In this document: positions 3,400-18,221 of the stretch, in pieces | Layout: every line of letters begins with the position of its first letter | Numbering within the stretch: the stretch's first letter is position 1 | Virus record (IMG/VR): IMGVR_UViG_3300045135_001604 | Coordinates: 1 to 21,221 of that record | DNA: 21,221 bases | Source of the DNA: a virus | Reading direction: 5' to 3' (one strand) | Notes under the pieces: model-generated | Databases searched by the model: none | What the model was told of the DNA's origin: nothing | Seen by the model: only the letters and a program-made list of their open reading frames with translations | Program-made: the position numbers and the translations under genes

Positions 3400-3515
3400 A
3401 ATAGCTCTTGACTCATATACTGCTTTATGATTACATTTAGACAATATGAAAACGAGAGAAAAAAAAATAAAAAAAGCTCTTGACTTTATCAAAAATTCTT
3501 TGTATATTATATAGT
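3400..3515 (+). promoter_or_regulatory. Intergenic region with two copies of AGCTCTTGACT
   Basis: No convincing gene is seen in this 116-base gap. The 11-base word AGCTCTTGACT occurs twice, at 3403-3413 and 3475-3485, 72 bases apart, and each copy contains TTGACT, a near-consensus sigma-70 -35 box. Only the downstream copy is followed by a strong -10 element. Poly-A tracts lie between the copies. The arrangement suggests a duplicated promoter element feeding the SWIM/tRNA-Cys unit. Confidence 0.45.
3480..3508 (+). promoter_or_regulatory. Sigma-70-type promoter for SWIM gene and tRNA-Cys
   Basis: TTGACT (3480-3485) and TATATT (3503-3508) are separated by exactly 17 bases, a near-consensus host sigma-70 promoter. 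The predicted start of transcription, about seven bases past the -10 box, falls at or next to the ATG at 3516, so the SWIM message would be leaderless or nearly so. The promoter would also serve the tRNA-Cys and the genes behind it. Confidence 0.6.
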
Positions 3516-3782
3516 ATGAATAATAAAGAATTATTAGATTATATAATTAAGAAGTTCGATGGTGTTTTGGTAGATGACTATGATATTTATCATTATAAGA
3601 TAGAGGGTAAACCTTACGACATAAGGTTTGATTCCAATAGAAAAGAATGGTCATGTAGTTGTCCAGCGTTTACCTTTAGACACCGATGGAAAAAAAAGTT
3701 TTGTAAACATATAGTAGAGATGAAAAACAAAGCATTCAAATATCATCTTCATGGCCGAGATGGTGTCCGAATGGCTAGGTAA
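3516..3782 (+). CDS. SWIM zinc-finger protein
   Basis: The 88-residue reading starts at ATG 3516; an extension back to an ATT/TTG-type start near 3480 would lie inside the promoter and is not favoured. The protein has a short alpha/beta N-terminus followed by W-S-C-S-C-P-A-F (45-52) and F-C-K-H (62-65), the CxC...CxH zinc signature of SWIM domains, here with a 13-residue spacer. SWIM domains bind nucleic acid or protein partners in recombination and transposition-related proteins; the partner here is unknown. The last nine codons lie inside the tRNA-Cys gene, so processing of the tRNA out of a common transcript would destroy the 3' end of this message. No clear Shine-Dalgarno sequence precedes the start. 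Confidence 0.72.
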   Translation: MNNKELLDYIIKKFDGVLVDDYDIYHYKIEGKPYDIRFDSNRKEWSCSCPAFTFRHRWKKKFCKHIVEMKNKAFKYHLHGRDGVRMAR

Positions 3783-3827
3783 CGGATTGCAACCCCGTGT
3801 ATGTGAGTTCGAATCTCACCCATCTCT
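3757..3827 (+). tRNA. tRNA-Cys (anticodon GCA)
   Basis: A full cloverleaf can be drawn. The acceptor stem GAGATGG (3757-3763) pairs with CCATCTC (3820-3826), and the T stem GTGAG/CTCAC (3803-3807, 3815-3819) closes a TTCGAAT loop. The anticodon stem 3782-3786/3794-3798 has one loop-closing A-C mismatch, and the loop TTGCAAC places GCA at 3789-3791. The discriminator base is T (U73), as expected for cysteine tRNAs. No CCA is encoded (CAA follows), so maturation needs a CCA-adding enzyme, which the phage encodes at 521-2242. The D stem is short. The gene overlaps the 3' end of the SWIM ORF by 26 bases and is followed two bases later by the RBS of the next gene. Confidence 0.93.
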
Positions 3828-3840
3828 CAAGGAGAAGTAA

Positions 3841-4875: not shown

Positions 4876-5040
4876 ATGAGTAATTTTGAAAAAGCGGCTA
4901 TGAGAATTATGGGAGTAATACTAATTGGTTGTTTGATAATTTTATATCTACAACTTCTTGGTTGTGCTCCCAATCCACCAAAGAAGGAAGAACCAATTCG
5001 AGATTATATTGATGATGTAAGTATGGAGAACTATGCGTAA
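4876..5040 (+). CDS. Small lipoprotein candidate (54 aa)
   Basis: This 54-residue ORF encodes a hydrophobic segment (about residues 9-29) ending L-L-G-C at residues 27-30, then [10 protein letters not shown]. The L-x-G-C lipobox followed by a proline-rich stretch is the layout of small phage lipoproteins, including Rz1-type outer-membrane spanins, although the -2 position (L) is not the favourite. The stop lies 8 bases inside the deformylase gene, an overlap that supports coupled translation. Whether it is a lysis protein is inference; no partner inner-membrane spanin is evident next to it. A plain membrane-anchored peptide is the alternative. Confidence 0.5.
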
Positions 5041-5626
5041 AGTTATAGATTGTTTTCAAGAACATAATCCATTAATAAACAAGAAACTAAAAAACGTTTC
5101 TGTTGAAGAAGGAATGAAAATTGCTACAGAACTATTTGAGATACTTAACGAAAGAGGAGATGGAATTGGTTTGGCGGCTAATCAAGTTGGGATTGACGCG
5201 AATGTTGCCGTGGTTAATGTTAGGGAGCCTCTTATTCTCATAAACCCAGTTATAAAAGAACAATGGGATGAAGTAGATTATTACGAAGGTTGTTTATCTT
5301 GGCCTAAGAAAGGTGTTCACACAAAACGATTCAAAAACGTAATAGTGAAAACTGAACAATCAGAAAGTGAATGGTATTTTAGTGGTGTTGAAACTACAAT
5401 GGAAGGTAAAGGTCAATGGGAACAAGAAGGAAAAAAACAAGAACAAGAAGATAGGTTGTTAGAAGCTATTTGTGTTCAACATGAGATAGACCATTTAAAT
5501 GGAATAAGTTGTATTGACAAAGAAGTAAAATTAGAACCAATTGTCATGGATAAAAAAGTTGGTCGTAATGACCCGTGTCCTTGTGGTTCAGGTAAAAAAT
5601 ATAAAAAGTGTTGTTTGAGGAAATAA
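5033..5626 (+). CDS. def: Peptide deformylase with C-terminal SEC-C zinc motif
   Basis: The 197-residue protein has the three deformylase motifs: G-I-G-L-A-A-N-Q (44-51), E-G-C-L-S (85-89) and Q-H-E-I-D-H (149-154). The metal ligands Cys87, His150 and His154 and catalytic Glu151 are all present, so it should remove N-formyl groups from nascent peptides at the ribosome. Residues 177-194 form a SEC-C motif ([18 protein letters not shown]) with zinc-ligand cysteines 182, 184, 193 and 194, like the C-terminus of SecA. A charged Gln/Glu/Lys-rich insertion at about 116-142 separates motifs 2 and 3. The gene overlaps the upstream lipoprotein candidate and its TAA overlaps the ATG of the MazG-like gene. 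Phage deformylases are known from marine myoviruses; the SEC-C tail is the unusual part. Confidence 0.93.
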
Positions 5627-5901
5627 TGGAAAAACAAAGTACAATAAATAAGAAGTTAGATTACGAAACTGAATTATTAGTTATAACAATGGAAGAGTGT
5701 GGTGAGATGATTGAAGCGTGTTCTAAAGCTATACGTTGTGAAGACTATAAAGATAATGACAGACTCATAGAAGAAGTAGGTGATGTTTTGTGTATGATAG
5801 AATTGATGAAAAATAGAGGGATGTTAAGTAGTAGAGATTTGAACAATAGAGTTCAGTTGAAAAAGATGAAGTTAATGAAGTGGAGTAATCTAATCAAATG
5901 A
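5626..5901 (+). CDS. MazG-like nucleotide pyrophosphohydrolase
   Basis: The start chosen is ATG 5626, overlapping the deformylase stop (TAATG); an upstream in-frame TTG at 5608 would sit inside the deformylase tail. The 91 residues include E-E-C-G-E (23-27) and, about 22 residues later, E-E-V-G-D (49-53). This is the ExxE...ExxD metal-binding pattern of all-alpha NTP pyrophosphohydrolases (MazG/MazG-like). The expected reaction is hydrolysis of (d)NTPs to monophosphate and pyrophosphate, in phages usually linked to nucleotide pools or alarmone control. The protein is a single minimal domain. Its TGA overlaps the ATG of the IMPDH gene. Confidence 0.82.
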   Translation: MEKQSTINKKLDYETELLVITMEECGEMIEACSKAIRCEDYKDNDRLIEEVGDVLCMIELMKNRGMLSSRDLNNRVQLKKMKLMKWSNLIK

Positions 5902-7088
5902 GAAAAACATTAACATATGACGATATAAACATTCTACCTAAATATTCAGAAGTTTTATCTCGTGAGGATGTTGACCTATCTACAAGGTTTACCAAGAACA
6001 CCACATTGAGTATACCAATAGTATCTTCACCAATGGATACTGTAACTGAATTAGATATGGCAAAAGAAATGTTGGATATGGGTGGAGTTGGTGTTATACA
6101 TAGATTTCAGAGTATTGAAAAGCAAACTCGTATGATGAAGTTGTTACACTATGAATGGGATAGATGGTACAACATAGGTGGAGATAAAGATAGAACAGAC
6201 CATACACAAGTATTTGATGAATGGTATAAAAATATAAGACATTGGAATAGTCCGCCAACAAAATCTGATTACGAAGACTTACACGAATTACTTTGGTTTG
6301 CAGATGAAGCTAAGAAAGATGAAGATTATTGGAGTAAAAGACCCTTATGTGCAGCCGTTGGAGTCAAGGGAGACTACTTAGAGAGAGCTAAAGAATTGGT
6401 AAATAATGGTTGTAATGTACTATTTATTGATATAGCACATGGACATCATAAACTGATGAAAGATGCTATCAATAAATTGAAAGGGGAAAACAATGTCGAA
6501 ATCGTTGCAGGGTCAGTTGCCACCGCAGAAGGAGTACGATTCCTATGTGAAAATGGAGCGGATTCGATTAGAGTCGGAGTGGGAAATGGAAGCTTATGTG
6601 AAACGAGAATTAGAACGGGTGTTGGTATGCCTCAAGTTACTGCTCTTCTTGATTCTGTCTCCGTTGCTGATGATTATAATGTTCCTATCATTGCTGATGG
6701 TGGTATTCGTACTATCGGTGATGTGTGTAAAGGACTTGCTTGTGGGTCTGATTCGGTTATGTTGGGCTCCCTTTTATCAGGTACAAAAGAAAGTCCAGGA
6801 GATATTGAAAAAATAGGTCAATGGCCAAACGAGAAGTTATTTAAAAAGTATAGGGGTTCTGCTTCAAGGGATTCCAAGAGGAGTAATAAGAATGTTGAAG
6901 GCAATCACAAAGTTATACCATATAAAGGGAAAACCTTTAGAATACTATCAGATATTAAGGATGGAGTTCGTAGCAGTTTCAGTTATGTTGGGGCTAACAA
7001 TCTTTCTGAGTATCATAGTAAAGTAGAATTAGTAGAAATAACAACGGCTGGACAAATAGAAGCTCGTCCACATTTATTAAATGACTAA
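5898..7088 (+). CDS. guaB: IMP dehydrogenase-type enzyme lacking CBS domains
   Basis: The 396-residue protein has the IMPDH/GMP reductase TIM-barrel signatures: [10 protein letters not shown] (5-14), S-S-P-M-D-T-V-T (43-50), the catalytic loop [11 protein letters not shown] (227-237) with nucleophile Cys234, then T-G-V-G-M-P-Q (240-246), A-D-G-G-I-R (266-271) and Y-R-G (318-320). The place normally filled by two CBS domains (after about residue 83) holds only a roughly 65-residue tryptophan-rich, charged segment without CBS features. The reaction would be IMP to XMP with NAD+, the committed step to GTP; GMP reductase is the main alternative, since both share the catalytic loop. It sits immediately after MazG, pointing to purine-pool control. 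An internal + strand frame at 6493-6816 is a shadow of this gene. Confidence 0.88.
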
Positions 7089-7111: not shown

Positions 7112-7651
7112 ATGCCTGATATAAATGACAAAAATACTATTATGACTATTCTTCACGAAGCTATTATGGAAGCTGATGAAGATAAAGCAAACACAGCACT
7201 ACTTTTACTAAAAAAATACGAAGAAGAGTATGTAGAAGAAGAAGTTCAGATGTTAGATTCTATAGAAGATACTGAAGAGTTACCAGAAGAAGTTAAAGAA
7301 GTTGTAAAAGACCCAGAGGTAGCAGACTTAGTTAAACAATTCAAGAAGCAAGAAGTAAAACCTACTGTTGAAAAGAGTCTTGTTGATTTAGATGAGATAA
7401 TTGAACAACCAGAATTAGAAGTATCAGATAAACAAGAAAAACTTGATGGATTAAAAGAGGTATCTGCTAAACTTATTGCTACTGATTCTAAAGAAAGTAT
7501 GGCTATTGTACAAGAAGTTGGTATAAAAATGAAAGAGCTTGAGGAAGACATAAAAATTGACCAAGAACTTATCAGTAACCTTTACTCTAAAGGTGCTTCA
7601 GCGTCAGTTGGAAAGTCAGCATCTTCAAGTAGACGTAGGAGACGTTACTAA
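7112..7651 (+). CDS. Acidic coiled-coil protein with arginine tail
   Basis: A clear RBS (TAGGAGAA, ten bases upstream) precedes the ATG. The 179-residue protein is very acidic (runs of Glu/Asp at about 37-75 and again at 140-155), predicted mostly helical/coiled coil, and ends abruptly in a small Ser/Ala/Gly linker plus S-S-S-R-R-R-R-R-Y. The contrast of an acidic body with a basic tail suggests self-assembly or nucleic-acid contact, as in scaffold-like or prohead-core proteins, but no homologue was recognised. The stop codon overlaps the ATG of the next gene, which has the same kind of tail. Confidence 0.68.
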   Translation: MPDINDKNTIMTILHEAIMEADEDKANTALLLLKKYEEEYVEEEVQMLDSIEDTEELPEEVKEVVKDPEVADLVKQFKKQEVKPTVEKSLVDLDEIIEQPELEVSDKQEKLDGLKEVSAKLIATDSKESMAIVQEVGIKMKELEEDIKIDQELISNLYSKGASASVGKSASSSRRRRRY

Positions 7652-7998
7652 TGAAAAACTTACCAGATATAATTCAATACGTAGAAAGAGCTTTATCAAC
7701 AAAACAAGTTAGTGATTTGCAAGTAGCTTATGAAATAATGTTGGTAAACCAAAGAAATGAAGCTTTACAACCTGAAGTTAAAGCAGATATACCAGCAGAA
7801 GTTAAAGATTTTGAACAAGACGCTGTAGCTGTTGAGAAACAACGTCAAAAAGAAGAAAAAGAAATTAAAAAAGAATTTGTAAAGATTGAAAAAACTATGA
7901 CATCATTCCAATCGTCACCTGGTAAACCATCAGTAAAACCAGCTCCTAAACCTGTAAGAAGGACAAGGACAAAAGCTCGGTCAAGACGTAGAAGATAA
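7651..7998 (+). CDS. Charged protein with arginine-rich tail
   Basis: The 115-residue ORF begins by TAATG overlap with the preceding gene. It has a helical N-terminus, a central charged coiled-coil region rich in Lys/Glu/Gln (about 65-85), a Pro/Lys linker (about 92-102) and an end of R-R-T-R-T-K-A-R-S-R-R-R-R. The architecture copies the upstream protein (helical body, flexible linker, Arg tail), suggesting the two act together or arose by duplication and divergence. No family recognised. Its stop is three bases before the tmRNA 5' end. Confidence 0.66.
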   Translation: MKNLPDIIQYVERALSTKQVSDLQVAYEIMLVNQRNEALQPEVKADIPAEVKDFEQDAVAVEKQRQKEEKEIKKEFVKIEKTMTSFQSSPGKPSVKPAPKPVRRTRTKARSRRRR

Positions 7999-8001
7999 TA
8001 T

Positions 8002-8408
8002 GGGGATGTTTTGGATTTCGACAGGTGCTATTTGACAATTGAGTGCAACGGAGTTTGAGTAAGACTCGCTATAAAAGACTCACCAAACCTAATTGGCGAT
8101 GAATCGCTAGACGGGTTGGTAATAGATTGGCATTTGGCTGAGTACGATGTACCATCCGAACCAATCGGTGACTACCAACCAACTTACGCATACGCTGCAT
8201 AAGTTACTGAGTTGTCTAACACTCGGTCATAAAATAAGTTAGACACCACTCCTCGATGTTATGAGTATAAAAGAACATACGGAGCTATCCAAAAAAATAG
8301 TCGGTGGTTTGTAAGTAACTTCTCGGAGGGTAGTAACTTAACTAAGTTGTGAATGACTCATTGTAAAATACATTCTGGACGGGGGTTCGAATCCCCCCAT
8401 CTCCACCA
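8002..8408 (+). ncRNA. ssrA: Transfer-messenger RNA (tmRNA), one-piece
   Basis: tmRNA rescues stalled ribosomes by acting first as an alanyl-tRNA and then as an mRNA for a degradation tag. The 5' end GGGGATG (8002-8008) pairs with CATCTCC (8398-8404), giving the G3-U70 wobble that AlaRS recognises. It is followed by discriminator A and an encoded CCA (8406-8408). The T arm is GGGGG-TTCGAAT-CCCCC, and the D-like arm carries the typical GGATTTCGACAGG. Helix 2 is formed by 8029-8044 with 8356-8370 (14 pairs, one mismatch, one bulge). A pseudoknot-type stem TGTCTAAC/GTTAGACA lies at 8213-8220 and 8238-8245. The length of 407 nt is slightly above typical one-piece bacterial tmRNAs. It lies 3 bases after one gene and just before the RBS of the next, so it must be cut from a polycistronic transcript. 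Confidence 0.95.
8113..8202 (+). other. tmRNA tag-peptide reading frame
   Basis: Reading back from the TAA at 8200-8202, an open frame runs to GGG at 8113, directly after TAGAC (8108-8112), the element that usually sits just before the resume codon. This gives a 29-residue tag that starts G-L-V-I-D-W and ends T-Y-A-Y-A-A. If GCT at 8137 is the resume codon instead, the tag is 21 residues starting A-E-Y-D. Either is longer than the usual 8-15 residues, and the end is YAA rather than the common LAA/VAA protease signal. The stop codon and frame are firm; the resume codon is inference. Confidence 0.65.
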
Positions 8409-8427: not shown

Positions 8428-8955
8428 GTGAATACACACAAATGGGTAGCGTCACTAATAGTGGTGACTCTAATACAAGGATTTTTCTCTGTAAACATAA
8501 TGAAGAAAAATCGAGAAACATATAAAGGTTATATTGATATCTTAAAAACTGAAAATGATTACTTACATAAAGAGTTAAAGACTTTTTATGAACATGGAAT
8601 CTCTGTTGATGTAACGATGTATCAACCAAATACTATTCAATGTGATGATACACCAAACATAACAGCGGATGGTACTCGAATTAGAATACATAAAGCTTCA
8701 GAATACAAGTTTGTAGCTTTATCAAGAAATCTTTTAAAAAGATGGGGAGGCCCATTTGACTACGGAGACTTTATTTTAATTAAGGGAACAAAAACTAAAG
8801 ATGGTGTGTATCAAGTAAGGGATACTATGAATCCTAAATGGGTAAATGTAGTGGATATATTAGAATCAGAGAATGTAATACCATACAAGTATGAAAATGT
8901 ACACATATATCCAATGAAATGGCCAGAGAGGATAGAGTTTGTATCAAATAGTTAA
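8428..8955 (+). CDS. Membrane-anchored 3D-domain protein
   Basis: GTG 8428 is chosen because AAAGGAGC (8416-8423) lies at proper spacing; the longer in-frame reading would begin inside the tmRNA. The 175 residues open with a membrane segment (about 6-24, W-V-A-S-L-I-V-V-T-L-I-Q-G-F-F), then a helix, then a C-terminal domain from about residue 55: T-M-Y, C-D-D-T-P-N-I-T-A-D-G-T-R-I, F-D-Y-G-D-F-I-L-I-K-G, G-V-Y-Q-V-R-D and W-V-N-V-V-D-I-L. These strands and aspartates fit the 3D (RlpA/MltA-like double-psi barrel) domain of peptidoglycan-active proteins. A role at the cell wall, perhaps in lysis, is likely but not proven. It is co-transcribed with the tmRNA just upstream. Confidence 0.75.
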   Translation: MNTHKWVASLIVVTLIQGFFSVNIMKKNRETYKGYIDILKTENDYLHKELKTFYEHGISVDVTMYQPNTIQCDDTPNITADGTRIRIHKASEYKFVALSRNLLKRWGGPFDYGDFILIKGTKTKDGVYQVRDTMNPKWVNVVDILESENVIPYKYENVHIYPMKWPERIEFVSNS

Positions 8956-15761: not shown

Positions 15762-16175
15762 ATGGGTGCATTAGAAAATGATTTAAATCCAGATGTTTCG
15801 ATTGGGTTATCTTTACCACTTGGACATTCAGATTCTGGATTTTTTGAACAGACTCAAACCACATTAAAACAAACGTCTACTAACATTAAAAATTTGTTAT
15901 TGACGATGAAAGGGGAACGACCTTTTCTACCAGAGTTTGGGTGTGATATCTATAGTGCACTTTTTGAACCAATAGGTGATGAGACTACCGCTAAAATTGA
16001 AGATAGTATAAAAGATGCTATAGCACAATGGTTACCACACGTGGTTCTAAATAGAGTTGATGTCAATGTTGATATGCAAGTTCCTAATCAAATTAATGTA
16101 GATTTAGAATTTGGTGTTACAATAGAACCAGAAGCTCTTGAAACAATACAACTTGTATTTGTTTCTCAATTTTAG
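15762..16175 (+). CDS. 25: Baseplate wedge protein, gp25-like
   Basis: The 137-residue protein has the gp25/W lysozyme-like fold pattern. An early F-F-E-Q-T-Q-T-T-L-K-Q-T segment leads to N-L-L-L-T-M-K-G-E-R-P-F-L-P-E-F-G-C-D-I (about 42-61), the classic R-P-x-x-P-x-F-G motif, then A-I-A-Q-W-L-P and a strand V-V-L-N-R-V-D-V-N-V. T4 gp25 has 132 residues. It joins the wedge to the baseplate hub and sheath. It is followed nine bases later by the gp6-like gene, as in other contractile-tail systems. Confidence 0.92.
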   Translation: MGALENDLNPDVSIGLSLPLGHSDSGFFEQTQTTLKQTSTNIKNLLLTMKGERPFLPEFGCDIYSALFEPIGDETTAKIEDSIKDAIAQWLPHVVLNRVDVNVDMQVPNQINVDLEFGVTIEPEALETIQLVFVSQF

Positions 16176-16184
16176 GAGATTTAA

Positions 16185-18221
16185 ATGGCTAGTGCGGCGA
16201 AATTACAAAAAAAGGATGTTAAATATTTAGGTAGAGACTTTAGTGCTTTTAGAGAAAATCTAATAGAATTTGCTAAAACATACTTTCCAAATACCTATAA
16301 TGATTTTAACGAGTCAGACCCAGGTATGATGTTCATTGAAATGGCATCTTACGTTGGTGATGTTTTATCTTACTATGTTGATGATAGATTTAAAGAGTCA
16401 TTATTATCTTACGCAGAAGAACTTGATAATGTTTTTGAAATAGCTCAATCATTAGGATATAGACCAAAGTTAGCTACACCATCTTCTACAATAGTTGATG
16501 TGTTCCAAACTGTACCAGCTACTGGTACTGGTGATGATGTAAAACCAGATATGAGATACGCTGTTAATATTGGTGCTGGAATGCAAATAGCTTCGAGAAC
16601 TGGAATAACATTTCGTTCAGAAGAAGATGTAAACTTTGCGTATTCAAGTTCACTCGATAAACGTTCAGTTAGTATTTATGAAACATCGGCTAATGTTCCG
16701 ACAAAATATCTTCTAAAAAAATCTGTTTCCGTTTTAAGTGGTACAATATCAACAGACACATTTACATTTGGTAATGCTAAAAAATATGATAGAGTAGCTT
16801 TGTCTAAACCAAATGTAACAGATATAATATCAGTAACGGATAGTGATGGTAACAAATGGTATGAGGTTGATTTTTTAGCAAAAGACATTGTATTTGATGA
16901 CGTTTCTAACACAAGTTTGTCAGACCCAGAGTTGTCACAATATTCAGATGATACACCATATCTTATTAAACTTATAAAGACACCACGAAGATTTACAAGA
17001 TATATTAGGTCAGATGATAAAGTAGAATTACGATTTGGTGCTGGTGTTTCAGCTGGTGCCGATGAAGACATAGTACCTAATCCAGATAATGTTGGTTCTT
17101 CATTACCTGGTGGAGTTTCTATGTTAGATAAAACATTTGACCCAAGTAATTTCTTAAAGACAAAAGCTTACGGACTAGCTCCAGCAGACACAACATTAAC
17201 TGTAAAATATGCTCATGGTGGTGGTATTGGTCACAATGTAAGTGAAGGTTCTATAACAGAAATTAAAGAGATAGTAACAAACTTAGACCCACTTGGACTT
17301 GATTCTGCTACAGTAACAGCTACTAAAAGTTCAGTTGGTGTTATAAATCCTAATCCAGCTCGTGGTGGTAAATCTAAAGAAACTTTACGTGAAATCAGAC
17401 AAAACGCTTTAGCACATTTTACAGCTCAAGGTAGGTCAGTAACTAAACAAGATTACATAATGAGAGCGTATTCTATGCCTGCTAAGTATGGTGCTATAGC
17501 TAAAGCTTACATAGTTCAAGACGAACAATTAGAGGGAGCACAATATCAATTTCAAAAAGAACTTGGTAATGGTTCAGGTATTTTTACCATTGATAGAGAG
17601 TTATATGGACAAGACGATACACCAGAAAGTGGAGCTCCAAAAGTTCCAACAAGGATACCAAATCCTTTAGCACTAAATATGTATCTACTTGGTTATGACT
17701 ACAACAAACACTTGGTAAGTCTTAATAGAGCTGTAAAAGAAAACTTGAAAAACTATATTGGTCAATATAGAATGGTTACCGATGCTATAAATCTAAAAGA
17801 CTCTTGGATTGTAAATATAGGTGTTGATTTTAAAATAATGACCAAACAAGGATACAATAAAGAAGAAGTATTATTAAAATGTATACAAGTAGTTAAAGAC
17901 TTTTTTGACATTGATAAATGGCAAATTAACCAACCAATTGTTGTTGCTGAGTTGTCATACGCACTATCTTTAGTAGATGGTGTAGCTACATTAATACCAT
18001 TCTCTATAGATTTAGATGGAGATGGCCCAGGTGACCCAATACAATTACCCGTTATGATAAGAAACAAGTGGAGAACGGCTGATGGTTACTCTGGTAACAT
18101 TTATGACATGGGTGCGGCTTACAAAGATGGTATATACTATCCATCATTAGACCCATGTATTTTCGAATTAAAATATCCAGATACTGATATCAAAGGTCAA
18201 GTAATAGGGAGTATAACATAA
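16185..18221 (+). CDS. 6: Baseplate wedge protein, gp6-like
   Basis: TTTTAGGAGATTTAA is a good RBS. The 678-residue protein (T4 gp6: 660) opens with Y-L-G-R-D-F-S-A-F-R-E-N-L and F-N-E-S-D-P-G-M-M-F-I-E-M-A-S-Y-V-G-D, the N-terminal signature of gp6/J-type wedge proteins. The region near 405-445 (Q-N-A-L-A-H-F-T-A-Q-G-R-S-V-T-K-Q-D-Y) is the conserved turn of this family. It builds the inner ring of the baseplate with gp25. Adjacent to gp25 and overlapping the next ORF by one base (ATAATG), it is clearly part of a single late transcript. Confidence 0.92.
   Translation: MASAAKLQKKDVKYLGRDFSAFRENLIEFAKTYFPNTYNDFNESDPGMMFIEMASYVGDVLSYYVDDRFKESLLSYAEELDNVFEIAQSLGYRPKLATPSSTIVDVFQTVPATGTGDDVKPDMRYAVNIGAGMQIASRTGITFRSEEDVNFAYSSSLDKRSVSIYETSANVPTKYLLKKSVSVLSGTISTDTFTFGNAKKYDRVALSKPNVTDIISVTDSDGNKWYEVDFLAKDIVFDDVSNTSLSDPELSQYSDDTPYLIKLIKTPRRFTRYIRSDDKVELRFGAGVSAGADEDIVPNPDNVGSSLPGGVSMLDKTFDPSNFLKTKAYGLAPADTTLTVKYAHGGGIGHNVSEGSITEIKEIVTNLDPLGLDSATVTATKSSVGVINPNPARGGKSKETLREIRQNALAHFTAQGRSVTKQDYIMRAYSMPAKYGAIAKAYIVQDEQLEGAQYQFQKELGNGSGIFTIDRELYGQDDTPESGAPKVPTRIPNPLALNMYLLGYDYNKHLVSLNRAVKENLKNYIGQYRMVTDAINLKDSWIVNIGVDFKIMTKQGYNKEEVLLKCIQVVKDFFDIDKWQINQPIVVAELSYALSLVDGVATLIPFSIDLDGDGPGDPIQLPVMIRNKWRTADGYSGNIYDMGAAYKDGIYYPSLDPCIFELKYPDTDIKGQVIGSIT

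Follow-up and report, generated by a model that had tools for sequence, protein, structure and literature searches.

What tag would the tmRNA of an uncultivated marine T4-like phage add to proteins from stalled ribosomes, and is it the tag that standard software reports? We addressed these questions for a tmRNA gene on a 21,221-base IMG/VR virus fragment, the whole of which is referred to here as the window. That phages can carry a tmRNA is well known, although few do, as the initial annotation of this DNA had remarked: such genes occur in 402 of 18,146 phages (about 2%; 133 unique) (PMC9004378), and carriers include mycobacteriophages Bxz1 and Wildcat, Bacillus phage G, Streptomyces phage Sushi23 and OM43 phage Melnitz.

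A one-piece tmRNA gene in a T4-like phage

The gene, its structural elements and its immediate neighbours are as follows.

8002..8408, + strand: one-piece tmRNA (ssrA) gene (RF00023, 93.3 bits, E=1.6e-35; ARAGORN)
8002..8008, + strand: 5' strand of the acceptor stem, GGGGAUG, with G3 at 8004 opposite U at 8402 (sequence, cmscan alignment)
8051..8082, + strand: pseudoknot 1, read from the sequence, its position agreeing with the RF00023 alignment
8381..8408, + strand: T arm, 3' acceptor strand and encoded CCA (sequence, cmscan alignment)
7651..7998, + strand: upstream open reading frame of 115 aa, without a family match, ending 3 nt before the tmRNA
8428..8955, + strand: downstream open reading frame of 175 aa with a GTG start (PHROG 21574, unknown function), 19 nt past the tmRNA

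The initial annotation had proposed a one-piece, phage-encoded tmRNA here, and the Rfam comparison that it suggested bears this out, with cmscan (which reports the best match per tmRNA/tRNA clan only) aligning the gene to the full RF00023 model (1-374, not truncated) against a gathering cut-off of 47 bits, and with ARAGORN placing the ends identically at 8002 and 8408. Both programs recovered the unpermuted form rather than the two-piece arrangement of RF01849-RF01851, in which the 3' half comes first and is joined to the rest by an intervening segment. This sets the gene apart from the permuted, two-piece tmRNA of Melnitz and is consistent with the absence of a recent alphaproteobacterial or picocyanobacterial origin, in line with the annotation.

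The elements drawn in that annotation (acceptor stem with a G3-U pair, T arm, encoded CCA and helix 2) are all present in the sequence or the Rfam alignment. GGGGAUG pairs with CAUCUCC at 8398-8404, the T arm occupies 8381-8397 with a TTCGA T loop at 8386-8390 that is retained in relatives, and CCA stands at 8406-8408; the acceptor stem, with its G3-U pair, is of the alanine type. Pseudoknot 1 consists of GAGU (8051-8054) paired with ACUC (8064-8067) and UGAGU (8056-8060) paired with ACUCA (8078-8082). Loss of helix 2 and of the G3-U pair from close relatives had been named as evidence against a tmRNA, and both are retained: helix 2 is found in the Rfam alignment and in the RNAalifold consensus of 65 relatives, and the G3-U pair is kept in aligned relatives, where the A5-U pair has changed on both strands to C5-G. 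RF00023 matches also occur at more than 20 related viral loci.

An encoded CCA is found in 2 of about 54 distinct 3' ends among the relatives, most of which are without one. The window also carries a CCA-adding-type tRNA nucleotidyltransferase (521-2242; PHROG 2244, E=1e-68), and this enzyme could serve tmRNAs that do not encode their CCA.

The annotation's placement of the gene in a protein-coding operon of a T4-like phage likewise agrees with the genes around it. T4-type baseplate wedge genes (gp25 and gp6 PHROGs) lie at 15762-18221, a T4-like B-family DNA polymerase is encoded by a relative (L095, a 165 kb contig), and the spacing described at the tmRNA is as listed above, with an RBS-like AAGGAG preceding the GTG start at 8428. 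The best isolate matches of the gp6-like protein are Microcystis phage Mel-JY01 (47%) and Flavobacterium phage immuto (40%), the latter also retaining the order HD phosphohydrolase, gp25, gp6; a full tmRNA was found in neither of these closest isolates by baseplate gene. The 8428-8955 protein is the commonest downstream neighbour of long-tag and short-tag tmRNAs alike, and a TADGT-like stretch within it resembles a 3D/barrel domain. Elsewhere in the window we observed a peptide deformylase with a C-terminal SEC-C motif (5033-5626), an IMP dehydrogenase/GMP reductase-like enzyme (5898-7088), a MazG-like protein between these two, and a tRNA-Cys (GCA) at 3757-3828 that overlaps the end of an open reading frame at 3480-3782.

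Comparative evidence for the resume codon

The initial annotation had also noted a tag frame. The frame is real, but it runs over 8095-8202 rather than the 8167-8202 given by ARAGORN, whose tag covers just its last third, and the conserved tag of about 35 aa had been missed.

8089..8094, + strand: frame-setting upstream sequence CTAATT, with an A at -4 (8091) that is conserved in relatives and equivalent to E. coli A86
8095..8202, + strand: tag reading frame of 35 codons plus stop, GDESLDGLVIDWHLAEYDVPSEPIGDYQPTYAYAA, open in 63/63 relatives, pN/pS 0.40
8095..8139, + strand: N-terminal tag module GDxSLxGLxIDWHLA, conserved, not in short-tag siblings
8167..8202, + strand: C-terminal tag part GDYQPTYAYAA plus stop, the tag given by ARAGORN, with Q28, P29, Y31 and A34 nearly invariant
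8095..8108, + strand: small hairpin on the resume codon, 8095-8099 paired with 8104-8108

The E. coli tmRNA resumes at a codon 12 nt past pseudoknot 1 and depends on A86, which occupies -4 (PMC2481249). The GGC at 8095 has the same spacing from pseudoknot 1 and stands at tmRNA position 94, with cellular tmRNAs of one marine clade resuming at positions 94-99; an A occupies -4 in 63/63 complete relatives, and the frame that begins there closes on a degron-like C-terminus ending AYAA. Sibling phages with short, 9-aa tags (GNTANFAYA, GNYANVAYA and GTYSNVAYA) begin at the same GGC after ...AATT, so that short and long tags share one starting place. Together, these comparisons establish GGC 8095 as the predicted resume site.

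In the alternative, GDYQPTYAYAA is the whole tag, and 8095-8166 is structural RNA, not coding sequence, inserted between pseudoknot 1 and the point of resumption, as might be suggested by ARAGORN's 8167-type start in the window and in relative L003 (with a similar one in L004) and by the conserved hairpin that lies within the insertion. This appears very unlikely to us. ARAGORN's starts vary among the relatives (136-173, same frame) or are not found at all, and the base at -4 of the 11-codon, ARAGORN-type start is mixed (37 A, 16 T, 6 C and 4 G in 63 relatives), whereas the supposed insertion keeps its reading frame, changes length by codons, accumulates synonymous changes and begins at the very GGC at which the short siblings resume. 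The ARAGORN tag is judged too short because of the resume position, the siblings, the open frame, the codon pattern and the whole-codon indels, the last three of which are detailed below.

The hairpin itself is well conserved, with all five pairs present in 60/60 relatives despite G-U/A-U changes and one C-G to U-A replacement, and it leaves the -4 A outside its helix. Because the resume codon sits in this conserved hairpin, the first tag codons are under constraint at both the RNA and the protein level, and for the same reason not every conserved residue of the tag (G, D/E, S and L codons; GGG TTG) need be protein-selected. A hairpin over the resume codon could also weaken resumption. Within the tag end, CCAACC could form a second pairing with GGGUUGG.

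A two-part tag under protein-level constraint

The 63 tmRNAs in which the tag frame is open were recognised by an in-frame motif, with only 2/65 unrecognised, both of them short-tag forms; across these 63 distinct tmRNAs the two remaining frames are interrupted in 62 and in 63. The pN/pS of the other frames is 1.7 and 1.1, against the low value listed for the tag frame (63 relatives), and diversity by codon position in the conserved N-terminal block is 0.13, 0.07 and 0.35 at first, second and third positions, respectively. Indels in the linker are of whole codons, giving tags of 34-40 aa, with one of 49 aa (...YAYAQVSELSNTRT) where the tag stop codon has been lost, as seen in L161 (5155-5584) and L199.

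Comparing the tags revealed two conserved parts, S-L-x-G-L-x-[IV]-D-W-[HQ] and Q-P-[ST]-Y-A-Y-A(A), separated by a variable linker. In an alignment of 55 tags S4, L5, G7, L8, D11 and W12 are invariant, and H13, L14 and A15 join the C-terminal residues listed above as nearly so; the N-terminal module is thus better conserved than the C-terminal end. Among the 63, the C-termini are mostly AYAA, YAYA, SYAA or YANA, with ALAA occurring once. AlphaFold2 returned no structure for the tag (mean pLDDT 66), which fits a linear motif, as would be expected of one. In one short-tag tmRNA (L016, 336-680) the 5' end (ATCGATTGGCATTTA) resembles the IDWHL-coding DNA of long tags (ATTGATTGGCATTTA), a resemblance that may be due to chance or may hint at duplication.

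The comparisons set out above show that the N-terminal module is coding and conserved. They also speak to the possibility that the gene is a decayed tmRNA of host origin, acquired fortuitously (by imprecise excision, for instance) and not in use. The covariance scores would suit such an origin (93 bits for the window tmRNA vs 135-197 bits for cellular tmRNAs), but the gene recurs in many related phages with its tRNA-like part, G3-U pair and T loop intact, and its tag is under purifying selection, so that disuse seems exceedingly improbable. As a separate observation, the phage tmRNA lies far from the cellular tmRNAs compared. We instead read the locus as a functional-looking phage tmRNA that is predicted to resume at GGC 8095 and to write a two-part, 35-aa tag, and give this reading a probability of roughly 75%.

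Distribution of the long tag

We searched for the long tag by several routes. A degenerate DNA pattern for DWHLAE[YF]D retrieved 57 stretches in IMG/VR, all but one of which were the long tag, and a tag-blind pattern directed at the other end of the tmRNA gave mainly long tags among the matches listed, in several sub-types (e.g., ...DWHLANSEMGFDNFVEP...). Loci picked solely by a neighbouring HD-domain protein comprised 17 with the long tag and 1 with a short one. Altogether the long tag was found in 138 fetched loci, some contigs being counted more than once, and a profile of the tag gave strong matches only inside tmRNAs.

Beyond these phages, the tag module had no match in Pfam, PHROGs or the PDB, and only chance-level matches in 50,697 phage records searched with two sub-types. 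One sub-type searched against 84,980 bacterial and archaeal genomes gave one true match, on a 7.5 kb contig (L145; NHIV01000037.1) that carries a long-tag tmRNA and three tRNAs and is binned with the metagenome-assembled genome bacterium TMED198. TMED198 also has a separate, ordinary tmRNA with the tag ADYGYAAAA. The contig is likely a phage contig rather than the bearer of a host gene, and its binning is a possible hint of the host.

Comparison with known tmRNA systems

In most respects the molecule is a standard RF00023 tmRNA, matching the model over its full length and sharing with it a tRNA-like domain with G3-U, pseudoknot 1, the resume position and the -4 A. It departs from that standard in its tag region, which is about 70-80 nt longer. 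The commonest tmRNA tag length is 10 aa (PMC11915505) and the Sushi23 tag has 11 aa (ANSKFAFALAA), as against the 35 aa found here and the 34-49 aa of the 63 relatives (34-40 aa but for the single 49).

Tag lengths reach about 35 aa in other systems, and the length is therefore at the edge of the known range and not unique; the unusual feature is the conserved module, rather than the length of the tag. The nearest known analogue is the extended, Lon-read tag of Mycoplasma and Mesoplasma, an otherwise ordinary tmRNA with a lengthened tag that ends AFA, in cells without ClpXP (PMC9382460, PMC3985003). Another phage departure from the normal tmRNA is the TLD-only molecule of mycobacteriophage DS6A, which is without a tag frame, and similar molecules inhibit the host tmRNA; the window tmRNA, in contrast, has a full and longer frame. 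We found no report of a conserved long phage tag in the literature searched, in which subscription papers were only partly covered, and thus provisionally regard as new a long, conserved, phage-specific tag whose module is so far found only in uncultivated phages.

A model for the tag module

We propose that the phage tmRNA would be charged with alanine and, together with host SmpB, would rescue stalled ribosomes during infection. SmpB would have to be supplied by the host, as searches with positive controls recovered no SmpB from six related contigs of 94-165 kb. The initial annotation further supposed that the phage RNA could compete with the host tmRNA for stalled ribosomes. Translation would then resume at GGC 8095 and add the 35-aa tag. 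A longer template is mechanically plausible because in E. coli rescue is little affected by alterations to the tag template (PMC2481249). The tag would begin with the conserved, probably unstructured docking module SLxGLxIDWHLA, pass through the variable linker and end in Q-P-[ST]-Y-A-Y-A(A), which presumably plays the usual degron role. The added module would most probably serve to bind a protease, an adaptor or some other factor of host or phage, and proteins tagged in the course of infection may thereby be treated in another way than those that receive the tag of the host tmRNA. Our hypothesis is accordingly phrased for the module as a linear docking motif that alters the fate of tagged proteins; that its partner is specifically a protease or adaptor we consider close to an even chance.

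A narrower version, by analogy with mycoplasmas, is a protease switch in which tagged products would go to Lon (or to a protease of the phage) rather than to ClpXP. The extended mycoplasma tag ending AFA is read by Lon (PMC3985003, PMC9382460), and the phage tags are extended as well, with the alanine-rich endings tallied above and ALAA in 1/63. However, short-tag cellular tmRNAs also end AYA, so the C-terminus alone is no evidence for such a switch, and we regard it as an unlikely, if realistic, variant. A ClpP-like protease (116 bits) was found in only one of the six large related contigs (G003, locus L282), which speaks against the docking model.

The module might instead divert tagged proteins from degradation altogether, towards the virion, a phage assembly site or a titrated host factor. 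The stronger conservation of the N-terminal module over the C-terminal end would be in keeping with this, as would the module's being without a known relative, but the C-terminal end remains rich in alanine and resembles a degron, and the proteins encoded by the 165 kb relative contained no matching motif. We therefore consider diversion improbable and favour the docking motif.

Significance

The module-like, conserved difference in the tag offers a handle on the question of why phages carry tmRNA, as such a module leads one to expect a particular binding partner, and a particular fate, for proteins that bear the tag. Since a standard tool can truncate tmRNA tags, other unusual tags may hide in databases. 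More broadly, and tentatively, a widespread group of marine T4-like phages may reprogramme ribosome rescue, placing a new, phage-specific targeting sequence on every rescued protein such that the products would be rerouted during infection to a protease, adaptor or destination other than the host's own.
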